From positions 1 to 33,269 of the forward strand of contig CAINHV010000438.1 of the NCBI GenBank assembly GCA_903848965.1: a DNA stretch of 33,269 nt. Direction: 5' to 3'. The translations under genes and the position numbers were made by a program. Source of the stretch: an uncultured Opitutia bacterium. Lineage in GTDB: Bacteria; Verrucomicrobiota; Verrucomicrobiia; Opitutales; Opitutaceae. The notes under the pieces were generated by a model that worked only from the letters and a program-made list of their open reading frames with translations, was not told the DNA's origin and did not search any database. This document shows, piece by piece, positions 3,629 to 24,473 of the stretch (position 1 is its first letter; each line of letters starts with the position of its first letter).

Positions 3629-6103
<2,475 letters not shown>

Positions 6104-6974: not shown

Positions 6975-8720
6975 TCACGCCCGTTTCAGCGGCGCGACGG
7001 CGGTCATCTTGACCGCGCGCAGGAAGTCGAAATCGCAGCCTTGGTCCGCCTGCGTGACGTGATCGAGGAACAGCCGCCGATAACCGCGCTCGGGGGCGGC
7101 GGCTTCCGGTGCCGCGGCTTTCAGGGCCGCCGTGCGCGCCGCGATCTCGGCGTCGCTCACGAGCAGCGAAAGCGAACGTTGCGTCACGCTGAGCCGGATC
7201 CGATCGCCGGTTTGAACAATCGCCAGCGGGCCGCCGAGCGCCGCCTCGGGGATGACGTGCAGCACGATCGTGCCCATGGCCGTACCGCTCATCCGCCCGT
7301 CGGAAATGCGCACCATGTCCTTCACGCCCTGCCGGGCCAGTTTCTTGGGAATCGGCAGGTAGCCGGCCTCCGGCATCCCGGGCGCGCCAATCGGCCCGAT
7401 CCGCTTCAGCACGAGGATGTCGTTCGCCGCCACGTCGAGGGCTGGATCGTCGATGCGGTTCGCCATGTCCGCGGCATTTTCGAAGACCACTGCGCGGCCT
7501 TCGTGCTCGAGGAGATGCTTCGAGGCGGCCGACTGCTTGATGATGGCGCCGCCGGGCGCGAGGTTGCCTCGCAGCACGGCGATGCCGCCCTCGGCATAGA
7601 TCGGTTGGGCCCGCGGCCGCACGATCTCCTGGGCAAACGCGGGGGGAGCCGCGTCAAGTTCCTCGCCGAGCGTCCGCCCGGTGACCGTGAGCGCGTCGAG
7701 ATGGAGCAGCGGGCGCAGCTCGCGCAGCACGGAGCGCAGCCCGCCGGCGTGATGGAAGTCCTCCATGTAGTAGCGACCCGAGGGCTTGAGATCGACGAGC
7801 ACCGGCGTGTCGCGACCGATGCGATCGAAGGCCTCGAGATCGATCGCGATACCGAGCCGGCCGGCAATCGCGGTGAGGTGAATGATTCCGTTGGTGGACC
7901 CGCCGATCGCGAGGAGCACGCGCAGCGCGTTCTCGAACGCCGCCGGCGTCATAATTTTGTCGGGCGTGAGCCGCTGCGCCGCCATCGCGACCGCCGTCGA
8001 CCCCGTGAGCTCCGCAATGCGCATCCGATCGGCGGTGACGGCGGGAGGCGACGCGCCGCCGGGCACGGTCATGCCGAGCGCCTCGGTGACGCAGGCCATC
8101 GTGCTGGCGGTGCCCATCACGGAGCAGGTGCCGACGCTGGCGATCAACTGATCGTTCACGCGGTTGATCTCGGCTTCGTCGATTTCACCGGCGCGAAAGT
8201 TGCCCCAGAAACGACGGCAATCGGAGCACGCGCCGACGCGCTCGCCCTGGTGGGAGCCGGTGAGCATGGAACCGGTGAAGAGCTGGATGGCCGGCACGCC
8301 GGCGGAGGCGGCGCCCATGAGCTGGGCCGGGACGGTCTTGTCGCAGCCGCCGATCATCACGACGGCGTCCATCGGCTGGGCGCGGATCATCTCCTCCGTG
8401 TCCATCGCCATGAGATTGCGCAGGAACATGCTCGTGGGGTGCGCGAAGCTCTCGTGGATCGAGATGGTGGGAAATTCGACGGGCAGTCCGCCTGCGAGCA
8501 TGATGCCACGCTTGGCCGCCTCGAGCAGCGCGGGCGCGTTGCCGTGGCAGGGATTGTAGCCGCTGCCGGTGTTGATCAGTCCGATCACGGGACGCGCGAG
8601 CGCGTCGTTGGAGAAGCCGCCGCCCTTGATAAACGCCGTGCGCAGGAAGTACGAGAAGCCGGCGTCGCCGTAACTCGTGAGGCCTTTGTGAAATCCGGTG
8701 GGCGGGGTGGGCGTTTCCAT
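6975..8720 (-). CDS. IlvD/Edd-family dehydratase (pentonate/sugar-acid type)
   Basis: The 581-residue cytoplasmic protein belongs to the iron-sulfur dihydroxy-acid dehydratase/6-phosphogluconate dehydratase family, which eliminates water from dihydroxy acids. Three cysteines expected to bind the [2Fe-2S] cluster are visible: C58 in GYNPCHGNAP, C126 in IGGCDKTVP and C199 in VGTCSVMG. K128 next to C126 is the lysine that is carbamylated to hold Mg2+ in characterised members. The length and cysteine positions are closer to L-arabinonate/D-xylonate dehydratases than to the roughly 615-residue IlvD of E. coli. No other branched-chain amino-acid gene is nearby, so a sugar-acid role is favoured. The start at 8720 (METPTPPTGF) is preferred; the upstream frame only reads through repeats. 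Confidence 0.85.
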   Translation of the reverse strand: METPTPPTGFHKGLTSYGDAGFSYFLRTAFIKGGGFSNDALARPVIGLINTGSGYNPCHGNAPALLEAAKRGIMLAGGLPVEFPTISIHESFAHPTSMFLRNLMAMDTEEMIRAQPMDAVVMIGGCDKTVPAQLMGAASAGVPAIQLFTGSMLTGSHQGERVGACSDCRRFWGNFRAGEIDEAEINRVNDQLIASVGTCSVMGTASTMACVTEALGMTVPGGASPPAVTADRMRIAELTGSTAVAMAAQRLTPDKIMTPAAFENALRVLLAIGGSTNGIIHLTAIAGRLGIAIDLEAFDRIGRDTPVLVDLKPSGRYYMEDFHHAGGLRSVLRELRPLLHLDALTVTGRTLGEELDAAPPAFAQEIVRPRAQPIYAEGGIAVLRGNLAPGGAIIKQSAASKHLLEHEGRAVVFENAADMANRIDDPALDVAANDILVLKRIGPIGAPGMPEAGYLPIPKKLARQGVKDMVRISDGRMSGTAMGTIVLHVIPEAALGGPLAIVQTGDRIRLSVTQRSLSLLVSDAEIAARTAALKAAAPEAAAPERGYRRLFLDHVTQADQGCDFDFLRAVKMTAVAPLKRA

Positions 8721-9020: not shown

Positions 9021-9023
9021 CAA

Positions 9024-9118
9024 TTCAGAACCCCGAACTCAGAATTCAGAACCCCGAATTCAGAACCCCGAACTCCGAACCCAGAACTCCGAACCCAGAA
9101 CTCCGAACTCCGAACTCA
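9024..9118. repeat. Imperfect tandem array of CAGAACYCCGAA units, copy 1
   Basis: About 95 bases of degenerate 8- and 16-base units built from CAGAACCCCGAA, CTCCGAA and CTCAGAA. The array starts 4 bases after the 78-nt element and ends 10 bases before the methyltransferase stop codon. A shorter array at 18237-18289 ends 1 base before another gene's stop codon. Confidence 0.8.
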
Positions 9119-9128
9119 GCCCGCCCGC

Positions 9129-14296: not shown

Positions 14297-14313
14297 GTAA
14301 CGTAATACGTTAC
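14297..14313. promoter_or_regulatory. 17-bp palindrome GTAACGTAATACGTTAC, copy 1
   Basis: Perfect 8-bp arms surround one central base. An identical 17-mer lies at 14387-14403, exactly 90 bp away. On the minus strand this copy overlaps a GGAGG-preceded ATG (14316-14318) that would open a peptide starting MVTYYVTRR. It is 118 bp upstream of the SUMF1-domain gene. It looks like a dimeric repressor operator; the binding protein is unknown. Confidence 0.6.
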
Positions 14314-14386: not shown

Positions 14387-14403
14387 GTAACGTAATACGT
14401 TAC
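14387..14403. promoter_or_regulatory. 17-bp palindrome GTAACGTAATACGTTAC, copy 2
   Basis: Identical to 14297-14313. Two identical operators 90 bp apart fit repression by looping or autoregulation. No regulator gene flanks them in this window. The DNA from 14404 to 14590 shows no gene and no other clear structure. Confidence 0.6.
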
Positions 14404-14596
14404 GCGTTGATCGGGGCACGGGGAGATTAGGTTTCTCTCAGCCGGAATCGTGCAATGGCCGTGAAGCCGGGTTCCTTGGCGATCTGGCGGAAGGCGGATC
14501 TTAAGTCCGAAAGTATGAAGAGGGCGGAGGGTCGGACGTTGCTAATGCCAAGGGGCGAGTGGCCGAATACAGCTCTTTGCTCCAGCGCCGCCGAGC

Positions 14597-14763: not shown

Positions 14764-14814
14764 AAGGCACCGGCCTCCCAACTTCCAATGCGCATGGCAC
14801 GGCGAACGTCTCGT

Positions 14815-15204
14815 TCATTTCGCTCTCAACGCGACCGCGTACGGATGCAGCGTCGCGGTCATGACTTTCTCCGCGACCGCGGGATCGCCTTCCATGAAGG
14901 CGCGGGCGGCGGGCTCGTCGTCGGCCTCGAAGATCACGAGGCCCATCGTCTGGTCGCCGGACTCGGTCGTGCGGCCCGCGAGAATCACCTGGCCCGTGGC
15001 GGTCGCGGCCTTGAGTCGCTCGAAATGACGTCCCACCGCGGCCTGATCGGCGGGCGTCCACGCCTTGTCGTCATGCAGCCGCGGCACGAGCCGGAGCACA
15101 TAGAGGAACTGCTTCTTCGGGGCCGGCGTCGCCGCGCCATCCGCCGCGTGCAGCGGTGAGAGCGACGCCAATGACACTACGAGGGCAAGGAGCAGTCGGA
15201 TCAT
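14815..15204 (-). CDS. Exported YciI-like protein
   Basis: The 129-residue protein starts with a signal peptide (MIRLLLALVVSLASLSPLHA). It is followed by a single YciI-like alpha/beta domain of ferredoxin-like fold (about residues 32-127): FLYVLRLVPRLHDD, VGRHFERLKAATATGQVILAGRT, MGLVIFEADDEPAARAFMEGDPAV. YciI proteins form dimers with a small pocket lined by a His and an Asp. Here H and D occur in RLHDD and EGDPAV. No enzymatic activity is established for most. Export from the cytoplasm is less common. The start at 15204 is chosen because it gives the signal peptide; the upstream part of the open frame reads through the repeat at 15231-15308. The neighbours are not obviously related. Confidence 0.75.
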   Translation of the reverse strand: MIRLLLALVVSLASLSPLHAADGAATPAPKKQFLYVLRLVPRLHDDKAWTPADQAAVGRHFERLKAATATGQVILAGRTTESGDQTMGLVIFEADDEPAARAFMEGDPAVAEKVMTATLHPYAVALRAK

Positions 15205-15230
15205 AAGACTTGGATTCCGAAGCTGGCTTC

Positions 15231-15308
15231 GTAGCCCGTTGCGTGAGCAGCGGGACGACTTCCTGCAAAGCGTTCGAGAAGTCCCTGTCCTCACGGACAG
15301 GGCCACGA
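15231..15308. repeat. REPIN-like doublet with GTGA/TCAC loops, copy 1
   Basis: The left hairpin is GTAG-CCCGTTGC-GTGA-GCAGCGGG (15231-15254) and the right hairpin is CCCTGTCC-TCAC-GGACAGGG (15283-15302), closed by CCAC. Reverse-complemented, the doublet at 24655-24730 has the same order, loops and spacing, with paired changes in both stems. Confidence 0.85.
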
Positions 15309-15370
15309 CGAACCGCTTGGCTTCGGGAGTTAGGTAAGAGGTGAGATCTTGGAGCGGGGTATTCAGGGTC

Positions 15371-15405
15371 TTCCAAATTCGGCATTCGCCACCCGGCAAT
15401 TGGCA
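15371..15405. repeat. ATTCGGCATTCGCCACCCGGC repeat next to permease stop
   Basis: The unit TTCCAAATTCGGCATTCGCC, continuing ACCCGGCAATTGG, ends 6 bases before the permease stop codon at 15412. It matches 18660-18691, which also abuts a stop codon, and 6644-6680 in the other orientation. Confidence 0.65.
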
Positions 15406-15411
15406 GTCCCA

Positions 15412-17946
<2,535 letters not shown>

Positions 17947-18289
17947 GGGGGGATGAGAGCTGAGAGCTGAATCGCAGGCGGGGTATTGCAGGGTCAGTGC
18001 CAGCGCGCCGGCCTCGGTGCTAGCGATTGGGCGTCAGCCGTTTAAAATCCCCGCCAAGATCGGCGCGTCACCGGCCGCACCGAAAGTGAAACGAAGTCGT
18101 CCCATGAATGGGACGAGCGGGTGAGTTGAGGGTTGAGAGCTGAGAGAGTGGACAAGAAGGAGATCCCGAATGGTGGGCGTCCGCCTGAAGGCGGAACTAC
18201 GAACGGCCTCGGTGGACCTCGGCCCTCCACTGCTGCACTCCAAACTCCGAACTCCGAACTCAGAACCCAGAACCCAGAACTCCAAACCC
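17947..18289. repeat. Intergenic repeat mosaic between the two permease genes
   Basis: No gene is seen in these 343 bases. GAGAGCTGAGAGCTGA-type repeats lie at 17952-17968 and 18133-18148. A single CCGCCTGAAGGCGG hairpin with a CTAC head is at 18181-18200, the REP unit found doubled at 11100-11146. It is joined to a GGCCTCGGTGGACCTCGGCC unit at 18205-18228. A tandem array of CTCCGAA/CAGAACC units fills 18237-18289 and ends at the stop of the mini-permease. Confidence 0.65.
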
Positions 18290-18290
18290 A

Positions 18291-18548
18291 TCACTCCGTC
18301 CGCAGCGCGGTGAGCGGACTGATCCGTGTCGCGCGGCGGGCGGGGAGCCAGCAGGCAAAAAGCGTGGCGGCGGCGAGCACGAGAGGCGCGACCGTGAACG
18401 CGATCGGATCGAGCGCACCGACTTGGTAGAGGAGACTGCTGACAATGCGGCCCGTCCCGATGCCGAGGGCGAGTATGCCAATCGCCGCGGCGGTGAAGCC
18501 GGGGCTCTTCGCGAGCATGCGCAGCGCGAACCTGAGGTCGTTCATCAT
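18291..18548 (-). pseudogene. 85-residue mini-permease: ADOP N-terminus fused in frame to its C-terminus
   Basis: The first 31 residues (MMNDLRFALRMLAKSPGFTA, then AAIGILALGIG) are the standard N-terminus and first membrane helix of a MacB-type ADOP permease. The last 50 (SSLLYQVGALDPIAFTVAPL, then ACWLPARRATRISPLTALRTE) are its standard C-terminus with the last helix. The roughly 700 residues normally between them are missing, yet the frame is intact. The gene sits in the exporter operon between the ATPase and the full permease, where a second full permease would be expected. Repeats begin 3 bases upstream of the ATG and 1 base after the stop. It is most likely a deletion remnant. A two-helix accessory subunit of the exporter is possible, since frame and start are kept. 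Confidence 0.75.
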
Positions 18549-18550
18549 GG

Positions 18551-18691
18551 AAATGCCGAATTTCGAATTCCGAGTGCCGAATTCGGATGGCCGAGTTCGG
18601 GGGAGTGCGGACGGCGAAGAGAGAGGGGGTGCCGAGTCGGGAAGGGATAGATGGGCAGAGTCCGAAATTCGGCATTCGGCACCCGGCATTC
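18551..18691. repeat. GCCGAATTTCGAATTCCG / CCGAAATTCGGCATTCGG inverted repeats
   Basis: Left unit 18551-18600 (GCCGAATTTCGAATTCCGAG and GTGCCGAATTCGGATGGCCG) and right unit 18660-18691 (CCGAAATTCGGCATTCGGCA, CCCGGCATTCC) are inverted relatives. They fill the gap between the ATPase stop (18693) and the mini-permease start (18548). They are of the same family as 15371-15405 and 6644-6680. Confidence 0.7.
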
Positions 18692-18692
18692 C

Positions 18693-19394
<702 letters not shown>

Positions 19395-19558: not shown

Positions 19559-20839
19559 TCAATTGAGTTTGATGCGGTCGGTGGCGTCCCACTGGGAGCT
19601 GTCGGAAAGGATCACGCGGTCGCCCGGCTTGAGGCCGTCGACGACCTCGATGGTGTTGACCGAGCTGACGCCGAGTTTCACCTGGGTGCGGAGGGCATAG
19701 GCGCCATCGGCGTCGAGCTTGAAGATCCCGACCTGGCTGCGCTCCTGGCCGAACGCGGGGCGGCCGACGTAGATGACGTTGGCCAGCCGCTCGAGCTCGA
19801 TGGTGCCGTCGACGGAAAGATCGGGGCGCGCGCCGCGGGGAAGTTCGCCGGGAAGGAAGACGTCGACGGTGACGGTGCCGTTCTGGACGGACGGATCGAC
19901 GCGGGCGACCTTGCCCTCGACGACGCCGTTGCGGGTGTCGATGACGGCGAGCTGGCCGATCTGGATGTCCTTGGCCTGGGTTTCGGCGACGCGAATCTCG
20001 GCCTTGAGCCGCGCGGGATCGGCGACGCGCGCGAGGTTGCTGCCGGGCTGGACCTGGGCGCCGACCTCGACGGGAAGAAGTTGGAGGACGCCGTTCATGC
20101 CGGCGCGCACCGCGAGGGCGTCGAGTTCGTCGCGTCGCAGCCTGGCCTGGGCGCGGAGGCGATCGACCTCGGCTTGTTTGACGGCGAGCTGGGGCTCGGT
20201 GGTTTCCTGGGCGAAGGCGTAGCGCTTCTGCTCGATGGCATGCCGGGTCTGGGCCTGCTCGGCGGTGACCTTGGAGAGGCGACGTTCCAAATCGGATACA
20301 AGTCCTTCCTTGAAGAGCTGCTCGTTCACCTCGGCCCGAAGCTTCGTCTGCTCGTATTCGGCGCGGGCGCTGGCGGCGACGGACTCGGCCTGGAGCACGC
20401 CGCTCTGGAGGGTGACGCGCAGGTTGAGCAACTCGGCCTCGGCGGCCTTTTGCTGCGAGTCGGCATTGGCCGCGGCCTGCTCGACGTCTGGATTGGCGAG
20501 ATGGAGGATGATGCTGTCCGGCGTGACGAGGGCGCCGGGGCGCAGAATGATCTTGTCGACGCGGCCGGGCGTGCGGGCGGCGATCCAGCGAATTTCCTCG
20601 GGCACCAGGGTGCCGAGGCCGCGCACCTGGCGAACCATCTGGCCCTGCTTGACCGTGTCGATCCACACCGTGTTGAGCTCAACGGTGGGGGCGGCGGGTT
20701 TGAGCCGGGACAGGGCAACGGTGACGCCGATGAGCGCGCAGCCGGCGAGCGCGCCGTAAACGATGCGCTTCTGGCGGCGGGCCTTCGATTGATCGGGACG
20801 CTGAATATCCATGAGCGGGCGGACCTTTGCACCGTTCAT
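19559..20839 (-). CDS. MacA/HlyD-like periplasmic adaptor
   Basis: The 426-residue protein has an N-terminal membrane anchor (about 29-46, VYGALAGCALIGVTVALSRL). A lipoyl/barrel-sandwich half-motif follows (GTLVPEEIRWIAARTPGRVDKIILRPGA). A long alpha-helical hairpin spans about residues 118-245, rich in A, E, Q and R. The second lipoyl half is AVRAGMNGVLQLLPVEVGAQVQPGSNLARVAD, followed by beta-barrel and membrane-proximal domains. This is the membrane-fusion protein that links an inner-membrane exporter to TolC. It is first in the exporter operon, with a sigma54 promoter candidate about 44 bases upstream. An in-frame ATG at 20812 (MDIQRPDQS) is a possible shorter start. No ribosome binding site decides between them. 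Confidence 0.9.
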   Translation of the reverse strand: MNGAKVRPLMDIQRPDQSKARRQKRIVYGALAGCALIGVTVALSRLKPAAPTVELNTVWIDTVKQGQMVRQVRGLGTLVPEEIRWIAARTPGRVDKIILRPGALVTPDSIILHLANPDVEQAAANADSQQKAAEAELLNLRVTLQSGVLQAESVAASARAEYEQTKLRAEVNEQLFKEGLVSDLERRLSKVTAEQAQTRHAIEQKRYAFAQETTEPQLAVKQAEVDRLRAQARLRRDELDALAVRAGMNGVLQLLPVEVGAQVQPGSNLARVADPARLKAEIRVAETQAKDIQIGQLAVIDTRNGVVEGKVARVDPSVQNGTVTVDVFLPGELPRGARPDLSVDGTIELERLANVIYVGRPAFGQERSQVGIFKLDADGAYALRTQVKLGVSSVNTIEVVDGLKPGDRVILSDSSQWDATDRIKLN

Positions 20840-21667: not shown

Positions 21668-23011
21668 CTACCCCGGAAGCCGCAGCGTGGCGATGCAGCC
21701 GGTGGCGGCGGTGCGGTTGGTCAGCGTCAGCGAGCCGCCGTGATTCTCGGCGATCTGGCGGCAGAGCACGAGGCCGACGCCGGTGCCCTCGGCCTTCGTC
21801 GTGAAGAAAGGGACGAATAAATTCGTGGCCTGGGCGATGCCGGGACCGTCGTCCTCAATCAGGATTTCAACGGCGCCCGACGCGCGCCGCCACGCCACGC
21901 GCACGCCGGCATCGGGCCGGCCGACGGTGCGCTGTTCGAGCGCCGCTTCGACGGCGTTCTTGATCAGGTTGATCAACACCTGCTCGAGCTGGGCGGTGTC
22001 GCAGGGGAGCGTGAGGTCCGGGCCGTCGGGCGCCGCAACGGCGAGCCGGGTTTCCAGCGCGACGACCCGCTGGATCAGTGGACGCAGGGCGCACGGCGCG
22101 AGCGTGGGTTGGGGCAGGCGCGCGAGCCGGGCATAGGCCTGCATGAAGCGGGCGAGGCTTTCGGCGCGGGCGCCGATGATGTCCAGTCCGCCCCGCATGT
22201 CGTCTTCCCAATCGGCCGGCCGGCGGGGCGACTTCAGGAGATCGCTCAGACTGCCGGCGATCGATTTGATCGGGGCAAGCGAGTTGTTCAGCTCGTGTCC
22301 GAGCACCCGCACGATGCGCTGCCAGGCGAGCAGTTCCTCCTCGCGGAGGGTCCGGCTCAGGTCGGCGATCACGACGAGTTTGTGCGGCCGCCCTCCCTCT
22401 CGGAATTCTGTCCGCCGCATGCCCCAGCGTCCGCTGCCACCGGGGAAGCTGAGCTCGAGGAGCCGCGCGGGCTCGCCCTCGAGACAGGGGGTGAGCCCAA
22501 TCTCGGCGGCGTCCCGGCCGAGGATGCGCTCGGCGGGTTGGCCGAGGAGCAGCTGGCCGGCCTGGTTGGCGAGCCGGAGCTTGCGTTCGCCGTCGAAGGC
22601 AAAAATCGCGATATTGATCTCCTCCATCACAGTGCGGAGGAGCGCGGTGGCCTCGAGCGCGCTGAGCCGCTGATCCTGGAGGGTGCGGCTGAGGGTGTTG
22701 ATCTCGGTCAGGATTTCGCCGAGCGGTTCGTCGCGCCGGGCGCCGCGGGCGCGGATGGCAAAGTCGCCCTCGCGCAGCGCGGAGAGCAGGTTGGCCATCG
22801 TCTGCAGCGGGCGGACGACGTGATTCTGGAGGGCGAACGCGAAGCCCAGCCAGCATCCGACTGTCACCAGCGTGAGCGTCCATTGCTCCTTCGGCTCCAT
22901 GCCGCCGCGCCACACATAGTACTGCGTCACGGCGATCGCGGGCAGTCCGGCCAGCAGCACGTACAGCAGCACGAGCTGCTCATGGGTTAGGCGGCGGGCG
23001 GCCTTGGGCAT
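21668..23011 (-). CDS. NtrY-like sensor histidine kinase
   Basis: The 447-residue inner-membrane kinase has two N-terminal membrane helices (about 12-32 and 44-62), a HAMP-like linker (VVRPLQTMANLLSALREGDF) and a PAS-like domain (about 122-215). The H-box is VLGHELNNSLAPIKSIAGSL with phospho-acceptor H239. The ATPase has an N-box (LINLIKNAVEA), G1 (EDDGPGI), F-box (LFVPFFTTK) and G2 (GTGVGLVLCRQIAENHGG). The short periplasmic loop suggests that it senses membrane or cytoplasmic signals. It follows its response regulator by 94 bases, so the pair is one operon. An open frame begins at 23083, but the start at 23011 (MPKAARRLTHEQ) leaves the normal short N-terminus. The pair precedes the exporter operon on the same strand. 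Confidence 0.9.
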   Translation of the reverse strand: MPKAARRLTHEQLVLLYVLLAGLPAIAVTQYYVWRGGMEPKEQWTLTLVTVGCWLGFAFALQNHVVRPLQTMANLLSALREGDFAIRARGARRDEPLGEILTEINTLSRTLQDQRLSALEATALLRTVMEEINIAIFAFDGERKLRLANQAGQLLLGQPAERILGRDAAEIGLTPCLEGEPARLLELSFPGGSGRWGMRRTEFREGGRPHKLVVIADLSRTLREEELLAWQRIVRVLGHELNNSLAPIKSIAGSLSDLLKSPRRPADWEDDMRGGLDIIGARAESLARFMQAYARLARLPQPTLAPCALRPLIQRVVALETRLAVAAPDGPDLTLPCDTAQLEQVLINLIKNAVEAALEQRTVGRPDAGVRVAWRRASGAVEILIEDDGPGIAQATNLFVPFFTTKAEGTGVGLVLCRQIAENHGGSLTLTNRTAATGCIATLRLPG

Positions 23012-23105
23012 GGTGGGGGCGGGGAATGACCGGGCGCGTCGCGATTTTACCCAAGTGTTCGCAGCCGTTTCGGTCGCGTCCAAAGGCGGACGATCCGCGC
23101 CGCGA

Positions 23106-24473
23106 TCACAGCCCGTATTTCTCGAGCCGCCGGTAAAAGGCGCTGCGGCTGAGTCCGAGCTCCTCGGCGGCCTGGCGGGCGTTGCCGTCGCAGCGGGCCA
23201 GCGTCTTCTTGATCAGGAATGCCTCGACCTCCTCGATGCTCATCTCCTCGAGGCGGGGCGCGGTTTGGGAGGAATTCAGTCCGAGATCAGGCGCGCGAAT
23301 CACGCGGTCTCGGGCCATGAGGACGGCGCGTTCGACGGCGTGATCGAGTTCCCGCACGTTGCCCGGCCATGGGTAGTCGCGCATGGCCTGGAGCGCGCTG
23401 TCGTCGAACCCGGTGATCGCCTTGCGATACCGTTCCACGTGCTGCTTGAGGAAGTGCTGGCCGAGCAAATCGATGTCCTCGCGCCGCTCGCGCAACGGGG
23501 GCAGGTGCAGTTGGATGGTGTTGAGGCGGAACAGTAGATCCTGGCGAAAACGGCCGGCCGACACCTCGGTCTGGAGATCGGCGTTGGTGGCGGAGACCAG
23601 GCGAACATTGGCGTGGTAGGTGCGCGACGAGCCGACGCGCTCGAACTCGCCGGTCTCGATCGTGCGCAGGATCTTGGCCTGCTGGCTCATCGGGATGTTG
23701 CCGATCTCGTCGAGGAAGAGCGTGCCGGTGTCGGCGAGTTCGAACCGGCCGGCGCGGTCCGCCTTGGCATCGGTGAACGCGCCGCGGACGTGGCCGAAGA
23801 GTTCGCTCTCGAACACGCCCTCGGGCAGCCCGCCCATGTTGACCGAGATGAACGGCTTTCCGGCGCGGCTGGAAACCGCGTGCAGCGCTTGGGCGACCAG
23901 GCCCTTGCCGGTGCCGTTCTCGCCGGTGATGAGAACGTTGGCGTCCGACGGGCCGACCCGCGCGATAATCTCGAGAATCGGCTGCATGGCCGCGGACTGC
24001 GCGATCAGATTCGGCCCGCCTTTGCCGCCGCCGCGGAGCAATTGGTTCTCGGCCTCGAGCCGGCGATAGGCACGGACGGCGAAACCGAGATCGACCTGAT
24101 TCCGGATAATCGCGAGCAGCCGCGCGTTCTCCCACGGTTTGGTGACAAAATCACGCGCGCCCCGCCTCATGGCTTCGACGGCCACGTCGACACTCGCCCA
24201 GGCCGTCATCACGACCACCGGGAGAGTCGGATCGATCGCCTGCAGTTTCTGGAGCAGCTCCAAGCCCTCCTGCCCACTGGTGGTGTCGCGGGCGTAGTTC
24301 AGATCCATCAGGACCATCGCATAATCGTTGGCCTCGACGGCCTTGATGACGGCGGCGGGGGACTTGGCCGCCTCGGTCGCGTAACCTTCCGACTTGAGGA
24401 GGAGTCGCAGCGCCTCGATGACGTCCGGCTGATCATCGGCCACAAGGATCCGGTGGGCGGTGGGATTGGCCAT
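23106..24473 (-). CDS. NtrC-family sigma54-dependent response regulator
   Basis: The 455-residue activator has three domains. The receiver (about 8-120) has the acidic pair D13/D14, phospho-acceptor D57 in VLMDLNY and K112. The AAA+ domain has Walker A GENGTGKG (184-191), the sigma54-contact loop GAFTDA (231-236) and Walker B TLFLDEIG (251-258). A Fis-type helix-turn-helix is at the C-terminus (NARQAAEELGLSRSAFYRRL). It would use ATP hydrolysis to open sigma54 promoters when phosphorylated by the kinase encoded 94 bases downstream. The loop has D in place of the second G of the canonical GAFTGA, a variant seen in several active members. Two sigma54 promoter candidates in this window (12722-12736 and 20883-20896) are likely targets. 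The start at 24473 fits the receiver N-terminus. Confidence 0.93.
   Translation of the reverse strand: MANPTAHRILVADDQPDVIEALRLLLKSEGYATEAAKSPAAVIKAVEANDYAMVLMDLNYARDTTSGQEGLELLQKLQAIDPTLPVVVMTAWASVDVAVEAMRRGARDFVTKPWENARLLAIIRNQVDLGFAVRAYRRLEAENQLLRGGGKGGPNLIAQSAAMQPILEIIARVGPSDANVLITGENGTGKGLVAQALHAVSSRAGKPFISVNMGGLPEGVFESELFGHVRGAFTDAKADRAGRFELADTGTLFLDEIGNIPMSQQAKILRTIETGEFERVGSSRTYHANVRLVSATNADLQTEVSAGRFRQDLLFRLNTIQLHLPPLRERREDIDLLGQHFLKQHVERYRKAITGFDDSALQAMRDYPWPGNVRELDHAVERAVLMARDRVIRAPDLGLNSSQTAPRLEEMSIEEVEAFLIKKTLARCDGNARQAAEELGLSRSAFYRRLEKYGL

Follow-up and report, generated by a model that had tools for sequence, protein, structure and literature searches.

An 85-residue ORF in an exporter operon of an uncultured Opitutia bacterium is very probably the remnant of a full-length ADOP permease

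Between the ATPase gene and a full-length permease gene of an ABC exporter operon in an uncultured Opitutia bacterium lies an open reading frame of 85 codons, hereafter the mini, made of the two ends of a MacB-type permease. A first reading, made from the letters of the DNA only, placed the ORF correctly between these two genes and left two explanations: either an in-frame deletion had just occurred, or a two-helix derivative is being kept by selection. The window (the whole stretch analysed here, 33,269 nucleotides) is one whole contig of the 577-contig MAG G000, which is 94.7% complete. Upstream of the mini are the ATPase, the HlyD-type adaptor, the histidine kinase and the sigma-54 activator, and downstream is the full-length permease ADOP-B (Table 1). 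As set out below, the mini is very probably what is left of a full-length permease, ADOP-A, after one internal in-frame deletion of about 780 codons that followed the split from the nearest relative compared.

Table 1. Features of the locus in the window, and in-frame ADOP remnants found in two other genomes
Feature	Location	Strand	Evidence and remarks
Mini, 85-aa ADOP-A remnant	18291..18548	-	Residues 1-31 N-terminal end, 32-85 C-terminal end
Mini, N-terminal part	18456..18548	-	Cytoplasmic start and TM1, ending LALGIG
Mini, C-terminal part	18294..18455	-	Last TM and PARRATRISPLTALRTE tail
ABC ATPase of exporter	18693..19394	-	PF00005, E 3.5e-35; 97% to G004
ADOP-B, intact full-length permease, 844 aa	15412..17946	-	TIGR03434, E 3.6e-221; 92% to G004
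HlyD-type periplasmic adaptor	19559..20839	-	PF16576, PF13437
Sensor histidine kinase of operon	21668..23083	-	PF02518
Sigma-54-dependent (NtrC-type) response regulator	23106..24473	-	PF00158, PF00072, PF02954
ADOP-C relic, 26-codon N-terminal stub	14439..14516	-	Start ATG to ATA; 65% to G004 ADOP-C residues 1-26, E 3e-5
Intergenic short tandem repeat, downstream of mini	18237..18290
Intergenic short tandem/inverted repeat, upstream of mini	18554..18600
G282 mini, 79 aa	G282:C7:19416-19652; L107 (G282:C7:12000-31000) 7417-7656		TIGR03434, E 9e-25; in frame
G115 remnant, about 188 aa	L091 (G115:C30) 5090-5656	-	In-frame, internally deleted ADOP, both ends kept

The frame of the mini is intact, as first described, and translation from 18548 to 18291 gives the 85 residues MMNDLRFALRMLAKSPGFTAAAIGILALGIG / TGRIVSSLLYQVGALDPIAFTVAPLVLAAATLFACWLPARRATRISPLTALRTE, with the junction peptide spanning LALGIGTGRIVSS. 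Homology begins at 18548; the reading frame stays open for a further 48 codons upstream, which is why tools call a 132-aa ORF from 18689. In profile searches the NCBIfam ADOP model, TIGR03434, matched the mini in two stretches (E 6.8e-26), the best of which aligns residues 32–85 with model positions 750–803, and Pfam FtsX matched with 3.7e-6. Both ends are homologous to ADOP permeases, in agreement with the sequence-only reading, and the C-terminal part comprises 54 residues. The score of 90.6 bits is far below the family cut-off of 622.3 bits, which applies to about 800 positions, because nearly everything between the two matching ends is missing.

The state before the loss is displayed by G004, a member of the same genus and the nearest relative among the genomes compared. 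Its operon has the same gene order as the window, with identities of 97% for the ATPase, 92% for ADOP-B, 89% for the HlyD-type adaptor, 88% for the histidine kinase and 93% for the response regulator. Exactly at the place of the mini, between the ATPase and ADOP-B, G004 (contig C97) carries an intact ADOP-A of 865 residues that scores 776 bits against TIGR03434 (cut-off 622 bits), and residues 32–85 of the mini are identical to its C-terminus at 46 of 54 positions (85%). Many further genomes of the family likewise carry an intact ADOP-A ortholog, so the proposal that an ancestral second permease had been shortened by an in-frame deletion was borne out when the orthologous loci were compared. 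A search of G000 itself for the missing middle returned only the two end pieces and distant paralogs. Taken with the intact, syntenic ortholog in G004, this indicates that about 780 codons were lost, more than the roughly 700 residues first estimated. The deletion falls after the split from G004, at a synonymous divergence of about 0.5 per site; the claim that it had just occurred holds to that extent and to no finer date.

How the two ends may have been joined is suggested by the orthologs. They have LALGIG(A) around the 5' breakpoint and LA(L/V)(G/A/V)TG(K/R/Q) around the 3' one, and in some of them the codons of both regions are nearly identical, for example CTTGCGCTCGGCATCGGC versus CTCGCCCTCGGCACCGGC in L097. 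The ancestral ADOP-A (about 865 aa) would have come first among the permeases that follow the ATPase in a conserved operon of two-component system, adaptor, ATPase and several permeases. A single internal event could then have removed about 780 codons, with short homology probably joining two similar stretches that code for TM helices, LALGIG near the start and LAL-x-TGR near the end. With its breakpoints in two short stretches of this kind, a deletion would leave the frame unchanged and yield LALGIG-TGR. As the lost G000 sequence is itself unavailable, we infer this route from the orthologs. The frame may have been kept by chance, or a non-polar deletion may have been better tolerated upstream of ADOP-B, an intact and itself duplicated permease that could partner the ATPase once ADOP-A was gone.

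Repeats do lie on both sides of the mini, as had been remarked, but they are intergenic and recurrent. The same low-complexity repeats are found at 9022-9119 and in the spacers of G004, there also beside the intact ADOP-A; in all three stretches of the window the units are of 7/14/21 nt and of the GAACTC/GAATTC type. Since both flanking repeats are outside the ORF, they were ruled out as endpoints of the deletion.

The N-terminal part of the mini allows for a larger deletion, in which the N-terminus of one tandem ADOP was fused to the C-terminus of a second and one and a half permease genes were removed. Indeed, the relatives G002 and G003 have an extra ADOP between the ATPase and ADOP-A. Moreover, the core identity of residues 1–31 to the G004 ADOP-A is only 19/28, against 21/31 to the G004 ADOP-C. 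Overall, however, the N-terminus finds its best matches in other genera, among their ADOP-A orthologs (24/28 in G149, 23/28 in G067 and G070); the nearest relative, G004, has ADOP-A alone at this place; and 31 residues are too few for a decision. A fusion of two genes is kept in consideration because the G004 ADOP-A resembles the N-terminus of the mini less closely than ADOP-A from other genera does, and slightly less closely than the G004 ADOP-C, and we regard it as unlikely, with an appreciable residual probability.

Internal deletion of ADOP-A, the preferred explanation, fits an operon that is shedding permeases. G004 has a third permease, ADOP-C, located after ADOP-B and a gene with a YCII domain. 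Over the 3.2 kb that hold ADOP-B and the YCII gene (14812-17970) the window is 87% identical to G004, but of ADOP-C only the N-terminal stub is left, in a region where a blastn match joins window positions 14452-14568 to L034 5097-5212 (E 1e-12). ADOP-A itself was broken independently in G016, where a deletion joined a piece of the first periplasmic domain out of frame to the last part of the gene; residues 32–85 of the mini are identical to this relic at 49 of 54 positions (91%). Elsewhere in this part of the window, two identical 17-nt palindrome-like sites, GTAACGTATTACGTTAC, of which no pair would be expected by chance, are located 90 bp apart at 14297-14313 and 14387-14403, 5' of the gene at 14179-13073, and look like operator sites.

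The second of the original explanations, that selection keeps a two-helix derivative, was examined from the substitution pattern. The dN/dS of the C-terminal part of the mini against G004 is 0.13, compared with 0.08 for ADOP-B and 0.06 for the last 54 codons of ADOP-B. This value is no proof of function and was ruled out as such: the broken G016 relic is equally low (0.11 in comparison with G004, 0.09 with the mini), and the low ratio is therefore taken as inherited from the full gene. The changes unique to the C-terminal part of the mini are eight synonymous and one non-synonymous, where 71% non-synonymous would be expected at random (p about 3e-4, binomial by hand), which gives no indication of neutral drift in the mini. 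This pattern means either that the deletion came late on the branch or that the remaining sequence is constrained. In the G016 relic the corresponding unique changes are 3:0.

The sequence-only reading had named one observation that would speak against a recent deletion, the same short gene conserved in many genera. No ortholog of the mini was found in three overlapping sets, 57 relatives, 252 genomes of the family and a draw of 388 genomes from the phylum, nor in its own genome, its genus or one GTDB contig scan. A plasmid search for it found nothing, and a literature search for deletion derivatives of ADOP found nothing relevant in the collection of papers searched. One similar case is that of G282, from another family of the same class, whose 79-aa mini is at the same place of the same type of operon (RR-HK-HlyD-ATPase-mini). 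Compared with the first ADOP of its relative G635, a full-length gene there, its ends show 82% and 72% identity; the next ADOP in G282 is likewise only a short stub; and no close copy was found elsewhere in the family of G282. Judged by its different parent paralog and its different junction, the G282 mini is an independent event. The G115 remnant is unrelated to the mini and located away from any ATPase.

When N-C end pairs were scanned in 40 more ADOP-rich stretches (752 kb, 154 pairs), no other mini came up, only one truncated gene with stops. Taken with the isolated cases above, this indicates that ADOP minis are rare, sporadic and independent. Individual inspection of short open-frame matches showed most of them to be contig ends, frameshifts or C-terminal pieces; the candidates rejected were those of G070 (a split full-length gene), G190, G147, G148, G194, G068 and G098 (a C-terminal ADOP piece fused to the start of another gene). 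This last ORF, at L094 (G098:C2) 4605-5468 (+), combines an N-terminus that resembles a TonB receptor with the final part of an ADOP and is probably another deletion product.

All three ADOP remnants that retain both ends, those of G000, G282 and G115, are in frame (3/3), a count that detection partly favours and that is not called selection because three cases are too few. For the two that precede further permease genes, the mini and the G282 mini, avoidance of polarity would be a sufficient and is our preferred reading.

What the mini could do is constrained by what it has retained. Hydropathy shows two hydrophobic stretches, and two long helices are predicted at residues 16–43 and 49–76 in a single-sequence structure model of low confidence (pLDDT 64, pTM 0.32). 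In MacB-type permeases each subunit has four TM helices, the first two of which are separated by a periplasmic domain (PMC5985334); the mini shows two helices only, the first and last of the duplicated permease. As it has neither periplasmic domains nor ATPase-contacting helices, it cannot act as a transporter. A functional membrane peptide of two helices, derived from the permease and selected, for instance, to bind or regulate ADOP-B or the ATPase, would agree with the in-frame junction, the intact start and stop, the normal codon usage (GC3 0.86, like the neighbours), the 8:1 ratio of unique changes, the two predicted helices and the presence in G282 of another mini, of independent origin, in the corresponding place of the operon. 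Against it, each mini is confined to one genome, the two stem from different permease paralogs with different junctions, the same purifying pattern is found in the broken G016 relic, and dead permease stubs are present in both operons. We consider such a peptide quite improbable. The suggestion of a derivative kept by selection is thus not supported: the mini is known from a single genome and has no ortholog in any other genome searched, ADOP-C in the same operon is a dead stub, and a broken relic has a dN/dS just as low.

The 577 contigs of the MAG leave some room for a full ADOP-A that the organism has and the assembly skipped. This is very improbable, since no other contig holds the missing middle, the junction has only very short homology, the join keeps both frame and codon register, and the separate ADOP-C stub shows real decay nearby. 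It is equally doubtful that the position of the first permease in operons of this type repeatedly produces, through separate deletions that keep the frame, expressed two-helix hairpins which modulate the remaining permease or ATPase and are later lost.

The mini is a rare, lineage-specific deletion remnant, and presumably a non-functional two-helix hairpin that would at most be transiently expressed. Because the whole gene is present at the same place in close relatives, the ORF counts as a gene remnant of the ordinary sort, not as a small protein of a new kind. It reveals no new system; what it offers is a small case of gene loss, well controlled, which shows how paralogs are lost from the multi-permease ABC exporter operons of Verrucomicrobiota and how automated annotation can mistake a remnant of this sort for the gene of a small permease.

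Compared with known systems, both ends of the mini are ADOP sequence (TIGR03434), but about 780 residues are absent, including all periplasmic and central membrane domains. The operon resembles those of MacB/FtsX-type (type VII) ABC transporters in its HlyD/MacA-like adaptor, separate ATPase and MacB-like permease, and the mini retains the C-terminal FtsX motif; unlike a MacB subunit (PMC5985334), it has no periplasmic domain, and two helices where MacB has four TM helices. The G282 remnant shares its operon context, its open frame and the derivation of its ends from one ADOP, intact in G635, but differs in the paralog concerned and in the junction. The mini is also like the internal-deletion remnants of bacteria, with its ends kept, its middle lost, its ortholog intact in close relatives and its neighbours decaying, and differs from them in that the deletion is in frame and so leaves a short ORF with its native start and stop.
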